29,240 nt of DNA from a virus, in the IMG/VR virus record IMGVR_UViG_3300010938_000115, positions 1 to 29,240 of that record; one strand, written 5' to 3'. The translations under genes were made by a program, and so were the position numbers. The notes under the pieces are model-generated. The model had not been told where the DNA came from. It searched no databases and saw only the letters and a list, made by a program, of their open reading frames with translations. Every line of letters begins with the position of its first letter. Position 1 is the stretch's first letter. Positions 12,203 through 23,394 of the stretch are shown here, one piece after another.

Positions 12203-12231
12203 TTGACAAATAATTTTTTCCATACTATAAT
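12203..12231 (+). promoter_or_regulatory. Perfect-consensus promoter driving a non-coding RNA
   Basis: TTGACA (12203-12208), exactly 17 bp, TATAAT (12226-12231). This is a full-consensus sigma70 promoter and the strongest in the window. The discriminator TTTATTAG is shared with the promoters at 5581 and 19475. No plausible open reading frame follows for about 400 bp, so the product is taken to be RNA. Confidence 0.82.
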
Positions 12232-12237
12232 TTTATT

Positions 12238-12480
12238 AGTCGTGGGGGTAATTAGGGGATAGCGACTTAAAACAAGCCCTTATAGGTGTATACTGTTCTT
12301 GCCTGGTTCTAACAGATGAAAAAGAACGCTCGTATGCCAAATCTTTGAATAAGAGAAATAGGTTTATTAAGAGTATTAAGGAAAACACTCGTGAGTTTTG
12401 ATAGTTTCGCAAGGTGTCCATCCTGCTGAAATAGAGCAGGAAGGTTTTCTGAAAAACTATCCTATTATTGTCTTTCTTTC
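12238..12480 (+). ncRNA. Putative structured non-coding RNA of about 240 nt
   Basis: The transcript starts about 7 nt after a perfect promoter and has no credible gene on either strand. Stems seen: AGTCG/CGACT (12238-12242 with 12263-12267), GTTCTT/AAGAAC (12295-12300 with 12322-12327), and a small AAAA..TTTT hairpin around 12382-12399. At the 3' end is a two-tier hairpin with outer stem GATAGTTT/AAACTATC (12400-12407 with 12454-12461) and inner stem TCCTGCT/AGCAGGA (12421-12427 with 12435-12441). A T-rich stretch (12462-12489) follows and may end the transcript. It does not look like tmRNA, RNase P RNA, a group I intron or a tRNA. The exact ends are guesses. The intergenic stretch 12196-12594 holds this RNA, the G-rich tract and nothing else I can name. 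Confidence 0.55.
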
Positions 12481-12492
12481 TTTATCCTTCTT

Positions 12493-12512
12493 GGAGGGGG
12501 GAGGGGGGGTGG
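12493..12512 (+). other. G-rich tract with G-quadruplex potential
   Basis: The plus strand reads GG-A-G6-A-G7-T-GG, 17 G in 20 bases, in an otherwise AT-rich genome. It lies between the 3' end of the putative RNA and the end of the convergent glycosyltransferase gene. It could form a quadruplex in RNA or DNA and act as a transcriptional roadblock. Confidence 0.5.
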
Positions 12513-12594
12513 CTATATCCCATCCAAATCTCTCTATTCTATTAATAAGAGTATGTATCCGAGAGAGTGATTGTCGGAAAAAAAACTATAAAAG

Positions 12595-14011: not shown

Positions 14012-14420
14012 ACTCCTTTGCTTTTTGAATAGTTTTAATAAAATCTGCTATTTTTTCAAGTTTTGATAAGACTGGTTGATTTCTCACCGAGACTATATTT
14101 TCCAAATATGAGAAAAATTCTTTATAAGATGTCTTGTCGTTTGCCCTTTTCCCTTTTCTCACCAAACTTTGAAAATAATCTTCTATGGTATCAGTTGCTG
14201 ATAAAACCTCTGGTGATAAATCCTCATAAACATTCTCAAGTCCCAGCATTTTAGCTAAATATGGCTTGCCTTCAGTCTTACTATAAAGCTCTGGTGATAG
14301 CTCTGTTTCTTTTTTATCACTTGATAATACTGCCCCCTCTTTTTTTTCAGGAGCAATATTTTCAACAGGAGTATTTTCTCCTATACTTGATACTTTTGTT
14401 CTAAAAGTTAAATCACTCAT
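13989..14420 (-). CDS. Acidic/charged hypothetical protein of the head operon
   Basis: 143 residues, starting at an ATGA overlap with the preceding 105-residue gene. The N-terminal 50 residues are polar and low complexity (NIAPEKKEGAVLSSDKKETE). The rest is helical (LSPEVLSATDTIEDYFQSLV, then SYLENIVSVRNQPVLSKLEKIADFIKTIQ). There are no cysteines, membrane segments or catalytic motifs. It belongs to the run of small genes between the capsid and the glycosyltransferase. The family was not recognised. Confidence 0.6.
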   Translation of the reverse strand: MSDLTFRTKVSSIGENTPVENIAPEKKEGAVLSSDKKETELSPELYSKTEGKPYLAKMLGLENVYEDLSPEVLSATDTIEDYFQSLVRKGKRANDKTSYKEFFSYLENIVSVRNQPVLSKLEKIADFIKTIQKAKEYGKYKDA

Positions 14421-14734
14421 TTTAGATGCGGATAATTAAATAAAAAATCCTCATCAATTAAGGCTTCAATTGACATAACATCCACTCTTAATTTTTCGGC
14501 AATCATCTGATAATTTAAAGCTCCAGACTGCCAAGCTTCCTTTAATATTTCTCTTACCTCATTTCTTTTTTTCTTTGCTTCATCATCATTTTCACCCCAT
14601 TTATATGTGTGTCTTCCGCCTTCTTTAACAAGTGAAATATTTAAAAGGGCTGGTTTTGAGACCATAACCTCATTTACCTTCATTATCGCCTCATTTAGAG
14701 TTAATCCTTTTTTTTCCTGTTTTTTATCTTCCAT
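14417..14734 (-). CDS. Hypothetical protein with the strongest SD of the window
   Basis: 105 residues, helical and charged, with LNEAIMKVNEVMVSKPALL and a helix-turn-helix-like C-terminus (LNYQMIAEKLRVDVMSIEAL). Its ATG is preceded by an 11-nt full Shine-Dalgarno (14740-14750) encoded in the last codons of the upstream gene, which it overlaps by 11 bp. That suggests high or independently controlled translation. The C-terminal part could be a small DNA-binding domain, but this is weak. The family was not recognised. Confidence 0.62.
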   Translation of the reverse strand: MEDKKQEKKGLTLNEAIMKVNEVMVSKPALLNISLVKEGGRHTYKWGENDDEAKKKRNEVREILKEAWQSGALNYQMIAEKLRVDVMSIEALIDEDFLFNYPHLK

Positions 14735-15053
14735 TTGGTATCACCTCCTTCCTAATAAATATATCTGCTTCTTTTTGACTGACCCTTGCTCTTGCTTTTA
14801 TTCTATTTTTCAAAAATGCTTCCGATTTAGCATAACTTTCAACCTTTTTTCTTATCTCGTTAAATTTTACCACGTCCTGTCTTTTCAAAGCGTTTATTAA
14901 AGCGACTCTCATTCGTTCTAAAAACGGATCTTTCATCTGTTCATAAACATCCTCCAATATGGCTTTTCTATGTTTTTTCCCCTCCGCTGTTTCTGCTTTT
15001 GATGCGGCCTCCTCTAGGGAGGCTAAATCTAAATCTCTTGTTGTTTTTCTCAT
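14724..15053 (-). CDS. Small basic helical protein after the capsid gene
   Basis: 109 residues, rich in Lys, Arg, Glu and Ala, predicted almost entirely helical (LASLEEAASKAETAEGKK, then RVALINALKRQDVVKFNEIR). It is the first gene after the major capsid gene, separated by a strong hairpin (15066-15091). Its last codons also encode the SD of the next gene. It could be a head-completion or minor capsid component given its place, but nothing in the sequence proves it. Confidence 0.6.
   Translation of the reverse strand: MRKTTRDLDLASLEEAASKAETAEGKKHRKAILEDVYEQMKDPFLERMRVALINALKRQDVVKFNEIRKKVESYAKSEAFLKNRIKARARVSQKEADIFIRKEVIPNGR
14740..14750 (-). promoter_or_regulatory. Exceptionally strong ribosome binding site
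   Basis: AAGGAGGTGAT on the minus strand, 5 nt before the ATG at 14734. It is fully complementary to the 16S tail and to the loop of the small RNA candidate at 22184-22203. Most genes of this window have no SD, so it stands out. Confidence 0.85.
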
Positions 15054-15102: not shown

Positions 15103-16014
15103 TTATGCTGTCGCACCAGTTTTTACATTCAAAACCCAAGTAGAAATCAAAACTTTGGCAACATAAGCACCCGCCCAACCAATAGTTGAGTATCGGTCAG
15201 TTGGGTTTGAGGTATCGGACTCTGATGGAACTTTGACGTAAAGTCTTGGCACATCACCCGATAGATCGTATTTAGCAAAAGCGTTAGCACCATGAATGAA
15301 GTTTGAGTAAACAGTTACTGTTGAAGACTCAGTCTTCTGATTGGTAACGTTTACAAACCTAACTCCATATAAAGCACCAACCTCTCCAGCGTAAAGTTTT
15401 TTTACATCGGAGTATGTAGCGGCATTTACCCAAGTTGTATCACCTTTTATATCATATTCGGTGTATGGACCAATCTTACCAACAAAGTATCCATCTGGAT
15501 ATTTCATAGCTTTGTTTACTTGTAAGGTTCTTACAGCTTTTCTAACTTCAGTTGCCGACATAGTATCGGTTGCGGCGACGTCAGTTAAAGCAGATTTTCC
15601 ACCAGCCAGTTGAGCTGTAGCACCAGAGTATAAAGCGTCTCTATCAAGAGTATCGATTGTTTCACCCATATTTTGTCCAAGAACCTCAACTTTTTCAGTT
15701 GCGTCCTTGTCAATAGAGGTTAATTTCAAGAGTTTGCTGATTTTAATAACATTTCCATACTCAGCAAGTTGAGCGGTGACTTGGTCTGCGGTTAAATTAA
15801 CCTCTGATGGGTTTGAGCCTTCGGATAAAGGAGTTGTAACAGCACTCAAAGGAGAGTATCTATTCCATTGAATCGTTTTACCCTCTCCTTTTGGATGGGT
15901 GTTTTTTTGAGCTCCTTCACCGTGCATTATCTGGTATTTTGCTCTTTCAAGAAACTTACTTTCGTAAAATGTTTTTACCTCACCTGATAAACCAGATGTA
16001 GTTTGGACTGCCAT
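15103..16014 (-). CDS. Major capsid protein, N4-gp56 family
   Basis: The 303-residue protein matches the N4-gp56-type capsid pattern. The N-terminal FYESKFLERAKYQIMHG is followed by QKNTHPKGEGKTIQWNRYSP, LSAVTTPLSEG, the ADQVTAQLAEYGNVIKISKL segment, and LGQNMGETIDTLDRDALYSG. The C-terminus carries VYSNFIHGANAFAKYDL and GWAGAYVAKVLI. It forms the icosahedral shell. A scaffold-like gene precedes it by 31 bp and it has one of the few clear SDs (GAAAGGGGGTGA, 9 nt from the ATG), suiting high expression. Length is on the short side for the family. Confidence is high from several motifs and from order. Confidence 0.9.
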   Translation of the reverse strand: MAVQTTSGLSGEVKTFYESKFLERAKYQIMHGEGAQKNTHPKGEGKTIQWNRYSPLSAVTTPLSEGSNPSEVNLTADQVTAQLAEYGNVIKISKLLKLTSIDKDATEKVEVLGQNMGETIDTLDRDALYSGATAQLAGGKSALTDVAATDTMSATEVRKAVRTLQVNKAMKYPDGYFVGKIGPYTEYDIKGDTTWVNAATYSDVKKLYAGEVGALYGVRFVNVTNQKTESSTVTVYSNFIHGANAFAKYDLSGDVPRLYVKVPSESDTSNPTDRYSTIGWAGAYVAKVLISTWVLNVKTGATA

Positions 16015-16023
16015 ATTATTTTT

Positions 16024-16035
16024 TCACCCCCTTTC
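16024..16035 (-). promoter_or_regulatory. Capsid gene ribosome binding site
   Basis: GAAAGGGGGTGA on the minus strand with a 9-nt A/T spacer before the ATG at 16014. Apart from one G-U position it is complementary to the extended 16S tail and to the small RNA loop at 22186-22197. Confidence 0.75.
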
Positions 16036-16045
16036 CTTGAAACTT

Positions 16046-19848: not shown

Positions 19849-20514
19849 TTAATAAAATCCCTGCTCATCAAATAACTTTTTATGTAAATCCTCTATCTGG
19901 TCATAATATACCTGTGCCTGCTTTTCTGTTACTGGCTCTTTAGCAAATAAAGAGACTTGATAAGAAATTCCCAAACTCATAACTAAATCGTCCTTTGCTC
20001 CCTTATCAGCCTGTGCTTTCCAAGATGATGAGGTTTGAACAACGACAAAAGAGTATAACTCGTTTATTGTCTCCTTGTCATAAATTCTTATAACTTTGTT
20101 ATCAATCGCCTGTTTTAAGTCCTGAAGCATCTTTGGTCTTGTTGATGATGAGGTAGTCCAGCCGTATTGAACCGCCTCTGGTGGATCAATTCTTCCAAAT
20201 GAGGGCATCTTAAATAAATCGTATTTATTAAGTCTATTTAAAGCCGCAAGCCTGTCCATCTCAAATGCTCCACCGTTGTTTCGCTCATATGCGACAACTG
20301 GTTTAATTCCTGTCCTGTCATATATTTTCTCTAAAACTGGAACAAGTAGATTGGTAAATTCGGTAGTTGTTATAGGTGAGTGATAAACTAATGGAACATC
20401 CAGTTTTGTTTTTGAAAGAAACTGGGCGGCAGTATAATCACCACCGCCTGATGCGGTGTCAACGCCAACAACAATGAATTCTCCTCGCTCTATTTGTCTA
20501 AACTGTTTGAACAT
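19849..20514 (-). CDS. terL: Terminase large subunit, nuclease part (separate ORF)
   Basis: 221 residues forming the RNase H-fold nuclease of a TerL, as a separate reading frame. Motif I is VGVDTASGGGDYTAA (Asp19), motif II VAYERNNGGAFE (Glu77), motif III KGAKDDLVMSLGI (Asp175/176). This domain cuts the concatemer at packaging. Its ATG at 20514 overlaps the end of the ATPase frame by 17 bp, and the frame is +1 relative to it. It has its own TATATG start context, so it may be a true split subunit made by coupling. A programmed +1 shift at GTT-TAG or a sequencing or assembly frameshift are alternatives. Confidence 0.85.
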   Translation of the reverse strand: MFKQFRQIERGEFIVVGVDTASGGGDYTAAQFLSKTKLDVPLVYHSPITTTEFTNLLVPVLEKIYDRTGIKPVVAYERNNGGAFEMDRLAALNRLNKYDLFKMPSFGRIDPPEAVQYGWTTSSSTRPKMLQDLKQAIDNKVIRIYDKETINELYSFVVVQTSSSWKAQADKGAKDDLVMSLGISYQVSLFAKEPVTEKQAQVYYDQIEDLHKKLFDEQGFY

Positions 20515-21340
20515 ATATCAAATCATTTTTAATTGGTTCTTTTATGTTATCCAAATACCATTTTAATGCCTGCTTATCAAAATAGTTTTGTCCACTTGAG
20601 ACAAAAGCATCAATATCAGTCTCGGGATACTCCTGGCTGTAAAACTCTTTTAACTCCTGTTTCTTTTGATTTAAGAAGTCCTGTGAATAAAAATCAGATG
20701 CTTTGAAAAATAATGGCTTAAATGGTCGCTCTTTCCTTTTACACTCTTCCCAGAATGTTTTGAAGAAATTGAAGCCGTTACTAGTTGTCTCAATAAAAAT
20801 CTTCCCTTCTGGAACTACTGCCTGGAGGGCAGATCGTAATATTGCTTCAGGATCAGGATAGTAGGCAAACTCGCTGGCGTGTAGTCCTGTAAGACTTTTA
20901 CTTCTTCCTACCTCCTTATTCTCTGCTGTTCCTATTTTGTAAGTTGAGTTTATTGCTTCGTTATAAAGTTCGTATTTTGAGTTGTATTTCAGGTTTAGTT
21001 TTACTTGGTTTATTTCCTCAAATGACTTGATGTAAAACTTCACTCTTGACAGTAAATCCTCCGCATTATCTGACTTATCAGCAATAACCATAGAATAAGA
21101 GTTATCTTTTAGCAAAAAATCAGTTGTAAAAATAGCAAGAATAATTGATGAAAATCCTAACTGTCTTGATTTTAAGATTACATCTCTTCCCGTTGCTTTG
21201 TTCAAAATAAAATCTTCCTGTATTTTCCAATGGTTTGTATCCTCATAAAATCTTTTAATTGTGCCGTCTTTGGCAACAAGCATAAAATTATCCTTGATGA
21301 AGTTGACATATATATTTGCTTTCTCTCTAAAGTTGGCCAT
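20498..21340 (-). CDS. terL: Terminase large subunit, ATPase part (separate ORF)
   Basis: 280 residues comprising the packaging ATPase. The Walker A-like KSRQLGFSS is at residues 57-65, VIADK near 86, LTGLHASEFAYY (150-161) gives the Walker B/catalytic Glu157, and IETTSNG (183-189) the coupling motif. It powers DNA translocation through the portal. A complete TerL would continue into the nuclease; here the frame stops after DLIYVQTV and the nuclease follows in another frame. The gene starts at an overlap with TerS. Identification is strong; the split is the odd point. Confidence 0.87.
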   Translation of the reverse strand: MANFREKANIYVNFIKDNFMLVAKDGTIKRFYEDTNHWKIQEDFILNKATGRDVILKSRQLGFSSIILAIFTTDFLLKDNSYSMVIADKSDNAEDLLSRVKFYIKSFEEINQVKLNLKYNSKYELYNEAINSTYKIGTAENKEVGRSKSLTGLHASEFAYYPDPEAILRSALQAVVPEGKIFIETTSNGFNFFKTFWEECKRKERPFKPLFFKASDFYSQDFLNQKKQELKEFYSQEYPETDIDAFVSSGQNYFDKQALKWYLDNIKEPIKNDLIYVQTV

Positions 21341-21871: not shown

Positions 21872-21900
21872 ACTATAACAAAGTATATCGTTGTTGTCAA
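21872..21900 (-). promoter_or_regulatory. Main leftward promoter (virion arm)
   Basis: TTGACA (21900-21895 on the minus strand), 17-bp spacer, TATAGT (21877-21872), with the ATG seven bases beyond. It is back to back with the rightward promoter at 21947; the 46 bp between them, and both boxes, are where a regulator choosing between the arms would bind. Confidence 0.75.
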
Positions 21901-21946
21901 GAAAGTTTAATTTTAGATTATTACAAGACTATAAACAAAATACCTC

Positions 21947-21976
21947 TTGACAAAATAGAAAGGATATGTTTATACT
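21947..21976 (+). promoter_or_regulatory. Rightward promoter upstream of the acidic small gene
   Basis: TTGACA (21947-21952), 18-bp spacer, TATACT (21971-21976). The predicted start is near 21983, giving a leader of about 23 nt rich in A and T with no SD. Confidence 0.65.
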
Positions 21977-22005
21977 GAATTTAGTTATAAGTTTTTGAAA
22001 AAAAT

Positions 22006-22140
22006 ATGGACAATCTTAATCCCGAACTTATGGAGGATTTAGATACACGAACAGAGGAAGAGATTGGCTATTTTCTAAAAGAGAAAGAAGAAGTAGAAAA
22101 GGTAGAAGAAGAACTTGACAATAGGGAGGTTTTTTGCTAA
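22006..22140 (+). CDS. Small, very acidic protein, first gene of the rightward arm
   Basis: 44 residues, starting MDNLNPELMEDLDTRTEEE, with about 18 Asp/Glu and 6 Lys/Arg, predicted as a single charged helix. The frame begins at an AAAATATG context 30 bases after a good -10 box and ends in TAA. After the TAA the same frame stays open for 33 codons to 22242, without a start codon; this is probably chance. Early, tiny, acidic phage proteins often bind host enzymes or mimic DNA, but nothing here proves that. The family was not recognised. Confidence 0.6.
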   Translation: MDNLNPELMEDLDTRTEEEIGYFLKEKEEVEKVEEELDNREVFC

Positions 22141-22143
22141 TCT
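22115..22143 (+). promoter_or_regulatory. Possible promoter for the small RNA candidate
   Basis: TTGACA (22115-22120), 17-bp spacer, TAATCT (22138-22143, four of six). It lies within the 3' end of the acidic gene. The predicted start, near 22150, coincides with the first paired base of the RNA described next. Confidence 0.45.
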
Positions 22144-22149
22144 CTTAAT

Positions 22150-22250
22150 AAAGACGAGGTAGCGAATTGGGATGAAGGGAATCAATCACCTCCTTTCTAT
22201 CAAGATTTCCCACTTATCCTACCCGCTCGTATAGGGGATTAAGTCTTTTT
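22150..22250 (+). ncRNA. Putative small RNA displaying an anti-Shine-Dalgarno loop
   Basis: The 100-nt region can fold as a closed three-way junction: AAAGAC (22150-22155) with GTCTTT (22243-22248); GGGAATC (22177-22183) with GATTTCCC (22204-22211, one bulge); and ATCCTA (22216-22221) with TAGGGGAT (22232-22239). The 20-nt loop of the second hairpin is AATCACCTCCTTTCTATCAA, which contains the 16S rRNA 3'-tail sequence ATCACCTCCTTTCTA. A T-rich stretch follows the closing stem. A promoter-like pair precedes it. It may be an RNA that pairs with SD sequences. A short in-frame peptide or a chance SD complement on the other strand are alternatives. Confidence 0.4.
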
Positions 22251-22254
22251 CTTT

Positions 22255-22285
22255 CTCAATCTTTGTCAGGGCGGCAAGGATTGAG
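22255..22285. other. Inverted repeat just upstream of the early promoter
   Basis: CTCAATC (22255-22261) and GATTGAG (22279-22285) are perfectly complementary, extendable by about three pairs outward (one of them G-U). The repeat ends 11 bp before the -35 box of the promoter at 22297. It is not followed by a T-tract in either useful direction, so an operator or RNA hairpin is more likely than a terminator. Confidence 0.4.
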
Positions 22286-22296
22286 GAAAAAAGAGA

Positions 22297-22325
22297 TTGA
22301 CAAACAGATTGGTTTTTGGTATAGT
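22297..22325 (+). promoter_or_regulatory. Promoter of the replication operon
   Basis: TTGACA (22297-22302), 17-bp spacer, TATAGT (22320-22325). The predicted start is about 22332, with a 20-nt leader made almost only of A and T before the ATG at 22353. Confidence 0.75.
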
Positions 22326-22352
22326 GATTTATAAATTTAAATTAAAATTAAA

Positions 22353-22619
22353 ATGAAAAAAAATCTTTCAATAATAACAACAGAAAACATTTTTAGACTT
22401 CGTAACTATCTTCAACAAATATCATCAATAAGTTTTACTTTTTCAAAAGTTAATCAAAGATATCCTATTGATAAAATATCAGAAGAAGAAGGACAGCAAG
22501 TAATAAAAGTATATGAAAATCTTTTAAAAGACACAGAAACTGTTATAAACACTTATAAAAATTTTAATTTAAATTTAAATAACAAAAATGGAAAACAAAC
22601 AACAAACTCCACAACTTGA
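22353..22619 (+). CDS. Small hypothetical protein at the head of the replication operon
   Basis: 88 residues, predicted helical: NIFRLRNYLQQISSISFTFS and EEEGQQVIKVYENLLKDTET, with an Asn/Thr-rich end. It overlaps the initiator gene by 32 bp, so the two are probably co-translated. No motif or family is recognised. Its leader lacks an SD. Confidence 0.6.
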   Translation: MKKNLSIITTENIFRLRNYLQQISSISFTFSKVNQRYPIDKISEEEGQQVIKVYENLLKDTETVINTYKNFNLNLNNKNGKQTTNSTT

Positions 22620-23394
22620 AAACGGTTTTATAAGAATAGCTACAGGTAAAGAAGAAAACGATATTTTAATGGCTCTTATTAAAGCAGATCTTAATTCTAC
22701 TGAATATCAAATAGTCTTGCTTGTTATAAGAAAAACTTGGGGATATGGTAAAAAAGAAGATTGGATAAGCATAACTCAATTTATGAAATATACAGGAAAA
22801 GGAAGAACAACTATAATAGAAGCTTTAAACAAACTAGTACGGAAAAGCGTACTAGTACGGAAAAGCGGACGAGGGATTAGGTCTTTGTATCGCTTAAATA
22901 AAGATTTTAATACTTGGAATAAACTAGTACGGAAAACTGGACTAGTACGGAAAACCGACAAAAGTAGTACGGAAAACCGTACTCCACTAGTACGGAAAAG
23001 CGTACTTCGTACTACAAAAGATAATATTACAAAAGAAACTATTACAAAAGATAATATAAATAATGAAAAAGATGAAATCATTCAATACTTCAATCAAGTG
23101 ATGGGCAAGCGCTTCAAAACACTGCCCGAGGCTAACCTTGAATATTGGCGGTCAATTTATTCAATTGACGAGATAAAGCGGGCGATTGATTTTATTCCCA
23201 CCCACGACTTCTGGCGGGATAAAATGGACTTGACTATTCTTTTCAGGCGTAAAAATCCAAAAGGAGAACCCGTTGATTATATTGGTCAATTGCTAAACAC
23301 TAAAAAACCCACCCAGCAAGCACAGGAGGGATTGAGTTCTTTTATGAACAGAATTGAAAAATGGAGAAAATTACAAGTTGATAAAAAAGTATGA
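22588..23394 (+). CDS. RepO-like replication initiator with the origin inside its gene
   Basis: 268 residues. The N-terminal 85 residues have the phage replication protein O pattern (NGFIRIATGKEENDILMALI, then STEYQIVLLVIRKTWGYGKK and ISITQFMKYTG), a winged-helix DNA-binding domain. Residues about 82-140 are a low-complexity region translated from six iterons (LVRKS/T repeats), followed by a TKDNI/TKETI/TKDNI section from three 15-bp AT-rich repeats. A C-terminal helical domain (about 170-268) could recruit the replisome. The arrangement copies lambda O, where the initiator binds iterons in its own gene. Here the partner downstream is a PrimPol-helicase, overlapping by ATGA, rather than a helicase loader. 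Confidence 0.82.
   Translation: MENKQQTPQLENGFIRIATGKEENDILMALIKADLNSTEYQIVLLVIRKTWGYGKKEDWISITQFMKYTGKGRTTIIEALNKLVRKSVLVRKSGRGIRSLYRLNKDFNTWNKLVRKTGLVRKTDKSSTENRTPLVRKSVLRTTKDNITKETITKDNINNEKDEIIQYFNQVMGKRFKTLPEANLEYWRSIYSIDEIKRAIDFIPTHDFWRDKMDLTILFRRKNPKGEPVDYIGQLLNTKKPTQQAQEGLSSFMNRIEKWRKLQVDKKV
22833..22999 (+). repeat. Iteron array, core ACTAGTACGGAAAA, six copies
   Basis: Copies start at 22833, 22851, 22923, 22941, 22963 (AG in place of AC at the start) and 22986. Spacings are 18, 72, 18, 22 and 23 bp; the first pairs share an 18-bp period. Several copies continue into an inverted half: the fifth reads AGTACGGAAAACCGTACT, a perfect 7-bp-arm palindrome around AAAA, while copies one and six have one mismatch. 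This suits dimeric initiator binding. Confidence 0.85.
23013..23057 (+). repeat. Three tandem 15-bp AT-rich repeats (unwinding element)
   Basis: TACAAAAGATAATAT at 23013-23027 and 23043-23057 flank TACAAAAGAAACTAT at 23028-23042. The period is exactly 15 bp and A+T is about 87 percent. They lie immediately downstream of the iterons and are read in frame as TKDNI, TKETI, TKDNI. Confidence 0.85.

Follow-up and report, generated by a model that had tools for sequence, protein, structure and literature searches.

In phage T7, RNase III processing hairpins lie between early genes. The loops of c4 RNA, found in phages P1 and P7, are thought to pair with the region of the ribosome binding site (PMC12197685), and the Gram-positive small RNAs RoxS and FsrA possess a C-rich region able to pair with an SD (PMC8216469). 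The putRNAs of HK022, about 70 nt in length and consisting of two stem-loops, follow its early promoters (PMC9378689). The present locus resembles T7 in having a long hairpin of double-stranded RNA between its early transcription units; this hairpin differs in having its own promoter-like site, P3, directly behind it, and its cleavage is putative. By analogy, an anti-SD principle may be shared with c4 RNA and the C-rich small RNAs, a resemblance that falls short of demonstrated membership in either group.

The DNA analysed here (the window) is the whole of one virus record of 29,240 bases, belonging to a tailed phage. Late genes, including those for terminase and the major capsid protein, occupy the minus strand up to 21900, and early genes, including an O-like replication initiator and a DnaB-like helicase, occupy the plus strand from 22006. 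The large terminase consists of two overlapping genes (19849-21340), one for an ATPase-like part of 280 aa and one for a part of 221 aa, and the same split is found in L003. Five copies of CTAGTACGGAAAA, resembling the iterons of the lambda O origin, are present at 22834-22999 within the gene for the O-like replication initiator (22588-23394). Elsewhere, at 12203-12594, about 360 bases with no clear gene lie behind a perfect promoter-like site (TTGACA-17-TATAAT) and end at a convergent gene; this stretch shows no unusual fold (z -0.37) and holds a short protein-like open frame at about 12260-12400, the start of which is unclear.

The interval 22150-22250, which the initial annotation had placed between early promoters, is indeed flanked by the promoter-like sites P1 and P3 (Table 1). 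The DNA around P1 is present in four contigs, representing three independent relatives, and the P3 pattern also has matches in four contigs. P2 overlaps the 3' end of the 44-aa gene and is absent from the computed promoter list because its -10 box falls under the threshold. The 44-aa gene itself is real: of the codon changes that separate it from its homologue in the relative L005, 13 are synonymous and 8 are non-synonymous. Two further relatives, L002 and L008, keep P1 and P3, have promoter-like boxes of their own at the place of P2, and carry other genes instead of the 44-aa gene. The slot after P1 thus holds 44 aa in the window (22006-22140), 106 aa in L002 (5859-6179) and a pentapeptide-repeat-like 141 aa in L008 (1625-2050), and is likely to be an accessory-gene hotspot.

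Table 1. Features of the early promoter region and the two strong late SDs in the window.
Feature	Position	Strand	Basis or remark
Promoter-like site P1, TTGACA-18-TATACT	21947-21976	+	precedes the first early gene
44-aa early gene, variable cargo slot	22006-22140	+	L005 homologue
Promoter-like site P2, TTGACA-17-TAATCT, TG before -10	22115-22143	+	read from sequence
5' part of putative RNA, alternative stems around a pyrimidine-rich patch	22150-22241	+	folding; comparison with L005
Possible closing helix, 5' strand ACGAGGUAG	22154-22162	+	potential partners 22219-22222 and 22226-22230
Loop of the drawn hairpin, 20 nt, holding 22185-22199	22184-22203	+	sequence, folding
3' strand CTACCCGCTCGT	22219-22230	+	partly common to L002
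25-pair hairpin, U-rich 5' arm, A-rich 3' arm	22242-22298	+	z -6.06; kept in three phages
Promoter-like site P3 of the early operon, TTGACA-17-TATAGT	22297-22325	+	computed list
Strong SD of gene 14417-14734	14740-14754	-	complementary to the drawn loop
Strong SD of the major capsid gene 15103-16014	16024-16037	-	complementary to the drawn loop

Among 19 loci related by their terminase, the DNA of the element is kept only in L005 and L011, which are identical over 8,493 bases and therefore count as one phage. Pattern and protein scans of the viral collection found the element only in these two and the locus in L002 and L008 besides, and no DNA match to the window was found in phage records. 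Identity between L005 and the window is 85-94% along the whole stretch, and the loop is not its highest point, with 16 matches and 2 substitutions that remove the exact identity with the 16S tail. The initial annotation had proposed a non-coding plus strand RNA here and named translation of 22141-22242 as the opposing case. Downstream of the 44-aa gene, the frame in L005 contains several stops and indels that are not multiples of three, so that the element is non-coding, and P2 would provide such an RNA with a promoter of its own. No intrinsic-terminator-like site was found on the plus strand between 21500 and 23000. A different candidate for a large ornate phage RNA is predicted on the minus strand of L004 (1-800), upstream of the terminase genes, at the place that the early leader occupies in the window; it extends over at least about 600 nt, includes repeats of GGGACGCTCTTAAA(A)CATTAC, has no Rfam match and is computed to be very stable (MFE -270.9 vs -187.4 for shuffles, z -10.7).

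The most solid feature of the locus is the long hairpin at 22242-22298, most of which lies beyond 22150-22250. In the alignment of the window with L005 and L002, all 71 of 71 cells are paired, and slid registers of that alignment are paired to only 56-69%. Eight of the 25 pairs vary, one of them on both sides, and all remain standard; with three sequences the shuffle control is powerless, 341 of 500 shuffles reaching the score. In the comparison of related phages that had been suggested, this hairpin is kept in three phages; the 16S-like loop differs at two bases in L005. Several of the hairpin pairs are G-U on the plus strand and would be A-C if read on the minus strand, and therefore selection, if any, presumably acts on the plus strand RNA. 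With 25 pairs and one mismatch, the hairpin is a near-continuous double strand of at least about two turns, as expected of RNase III hairpins, and it is this geometry that suggests RNase III action; no U tail lies behind it. In L002 and L008 this place is taken by another short hairpin and, behind it, a long one with U-rich and A-rich arms (z -4.7 and -5.5); in each phage the two hairpins lie between a promoter-like site and the same P3. No 16S-tail letters occur in this region of either phage.

Upstream of the long hairpin, three stems forming a closed junction had been drawn. Their letters are complementary (ACGAG/CTCGT, GTAG/CTAC, GATGA/TTATC and, around the 20-nt loop, GGGAATC/GATTTCCC), but the fold itself is not borne out: the stability of the 103-nt region does not exceed that of shuffles (z -0.24), and the fold with an open loop is less favourable by 1.6 kcal/mol than the best one, which pairs UCCUUUC with GAAGGGA. 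Both folds are possible, since energies computed in this way may err by 1.6 kcal/mol. In the ensemble the CCUUUC half of the patch is about 90% paired and ACCU is open, and the cost of opening the patch is just 1.8 kcal/mol. A helix between CTACCCGCTCGT and ACGAG(G)TAG, the sides of which are swapped between the window and L002, was rejected; the chance of its exact letters is 1e-4, and it was given no weight because its energy does not surpass that of shuffles (p 0.44).

Given the observed architecture, non-coding nature and long-hairpin conservation at 22150-22298, we put at about an even chance the reading that this stretch is a structured non-coding plus strand leader of the early operon, processed or cis-acting, in which the match to the 16S tail was not selected. 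Transcription would start from P2, where the first early gene ends, and the transcript would comprise a 5' part with one or two variable hairpins and a 3' part with the long, nearly perfect hairpin just ahead of P3. Such an RNA would be mainly cis-acting, and its constant part across phages, the long hairpin, would most likely be a double-stranded processing or stabilising site of the RNase III type, which would separate the early message downstream from the leader and the cargo gene. On this view the copy of the 16S tail would be a pyrimidine-rich patch in the 5' part, its exact match probably unselected.

The match itself is real, as initially annotated: ATCACCTCCTTTCTA at 22185-22199, within the drawn loop, is an exact 15-mer and the sole exact copy in the window. 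Some 1e-4 copies would be expected on both strands under a first-order Markov model, a figure that counts against an incidental copy and that applies to a motif picked post hoc. Fourteen of its positions equal the 16S 3' end GGATCACCTCCTTTCT, a tail taken from the MAG of a distant relative that may not be the host of the window. This bacterial MAG, which contains L028 (54% terminase identity), was the only close cellular match and has a 16S gene with that ending, which supports, although it does not prove, the same tail in the host of the window. Its 16S rRNA gene (L044) is about 1,820 bases long, contains insertions and lacks the standard 515F primer site, traits that resemble those of some candidate phyla.

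The use of SDs in the window is bipolar. Those of the gene at 14417-14734 and the capsid gene, with strengths of -22.6 and -21.0 kcal/mol, are near full-length and are the only strong and well-spaced ones; three other genes have short purine runs too near the start codon, and nearly all that remain, early ones included, are SD-free, in agreement with the scarcity described at first. Both late SDs were correctly recognized as complementary to the loop. Computed with the site length limited, since without this limit the duplexes had spread over long stretches, pairing of the patch with the SD at 14740-14754 covers 15 positions with one G-U (-23.0 kcal/mol) and that with the capsid SD 13 positions (-21.5 kcal/mol), leaving a net -17.8 and -8.1 kcal/mol, respectively, after opening of both partners. 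Only 0.4% of shuffled elements match the window on the 14417 leader and 3% on the capsid leader, which also counts against an incidental copy.

These duplexes, and the fact that their two targets are the only SDs of this quality in the window, argue for a trans-acting small RNA whose anti-SD patch would repress capsid and 14417 early, in the manner of C-rich small RNAs or c4 RNA. In L005 and L011 the element still forms 11-12 pairs with their own late SDs (-17.8 and -18.1 kcal/mol), but this pairing is 3.4-5 kcal/mol weaker than in the window and no better than that of shuffles (p 0.12 and 0.31). Moreover, the strong late SDs are also kept in the element-free relatives L008 and, as far as its contig reaches, L004, half of the patch is mostly paired, and the plus strand offers no terminator-like site here. 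A small RNA of this kind is consequently judged unlikely, although the two late genes with strong SDs may be repressed early in the window's own lineage; that an early phage RNA with a 16S-tail copy delays their translation until late infection is improbable. A phage RNA presenting the 16S tail was not found reported in the open-access literature. A likeness to c4 RNA may lie in the complementarity of the patch to SDs, here two late ones, which in L005 is at the level of shuffles; c4 differs in that no Rfam family scores above its gathering score in the window, and a permissive scan of 21880-22400 lacked the c4 family even among weak matches. No antirepressor target is known for the element, and any strong SD would be a pairing partner of the patch. 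RoxS and FsrA likewise resemble it in a C-rich patch capable of pairing with SDs, and differ in that the patch is partly sequestered, is not exact in L005 and is not followed by an intrinsic terminator.

An alternative role in cis would be antitermination as by HK022 put, in which hairpins of the nascent early transcript modify RNA polymerase. The position of the hairpins downstream of an early promoter-like site is similar, and L002 is predicted to have two of them straight after that site (91 nt, z -4.7), like the two stem-loops of putRNAs. The version in the window, however, is longer, its first hairpin being unstable and its long hairpin a single 25-pair stem; a sequence likeness to put is not established, and transcription would restart at P3 right behind the hairpins. 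We regard this role as quite unlikely.

The patch could also be the remnant of a gene start on the minus strand, where its complement, TAGAAAGGAGGTGAT, reads as a full SD and precedes a TTG and a frame of 36 codons. The frame is open (22075-22185), and the letters resemble the SDs of the 14417 homologues in L004 and L008 (TTAGAAAGGAGGTGAT). The spacing from GGAGG to TTG is just 3 nt, however, no promoter-like site serves the frame, and L005 lacks the TTG and has a stop in the aligned frame. A minus strand gene with an SD is not kept in L005 and was rejected, and the remnant reading is distinctly improbable.

The initial annotation had gone further, suggesting that the RNA masks SD-dependent messages of host and phage while SD-free early messages escape. 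In computed duplexes the RNA copy equals the 16S tail in pairing with SDs, and the early genes of the window are nearly all SD-free. In L005, however, which bears the element, three early genes are preceded by strong SDs (-12.7, -12.9 and -18.1 kcal/mol), so that a masking phage would there shut off early genes of its own; in L002, too, a strong SD (-17.0) precedes the first early gene. To mask host messages, the RNA would presumably have to match the ribosomes in number. Global masking is thus not supported and is very improbable, and because L005 and L011 behave contrary to what it requires, the 16S-tail copy may well be incidental. That the 44-aa gene continues beyond its stop through codons 22141-22242 is scarcely credible. 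In favour of this, the frame is open in the window and the segment FPLILPARI is retained in one L005 frame; against it, several stops ahead of that segment in L005 with no start codon between, together with frame-shifting indels, rule it out unless it is read through.

Returning to the proposed structured leader of the early operon, this locus illustrates how a striking match to the rRNA tail can lie within a non-coding RNA whose better supported structure is elsewhere. If the narrower reading, early repression of capsid and 14417, were true, the phage would time the synthesis of its structural proteins through the near-exclusive use of SDs by capsid-region genes, a simple translational switch. 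The bipolar use of SDs, conserved among relatives for these two genes, merits study.
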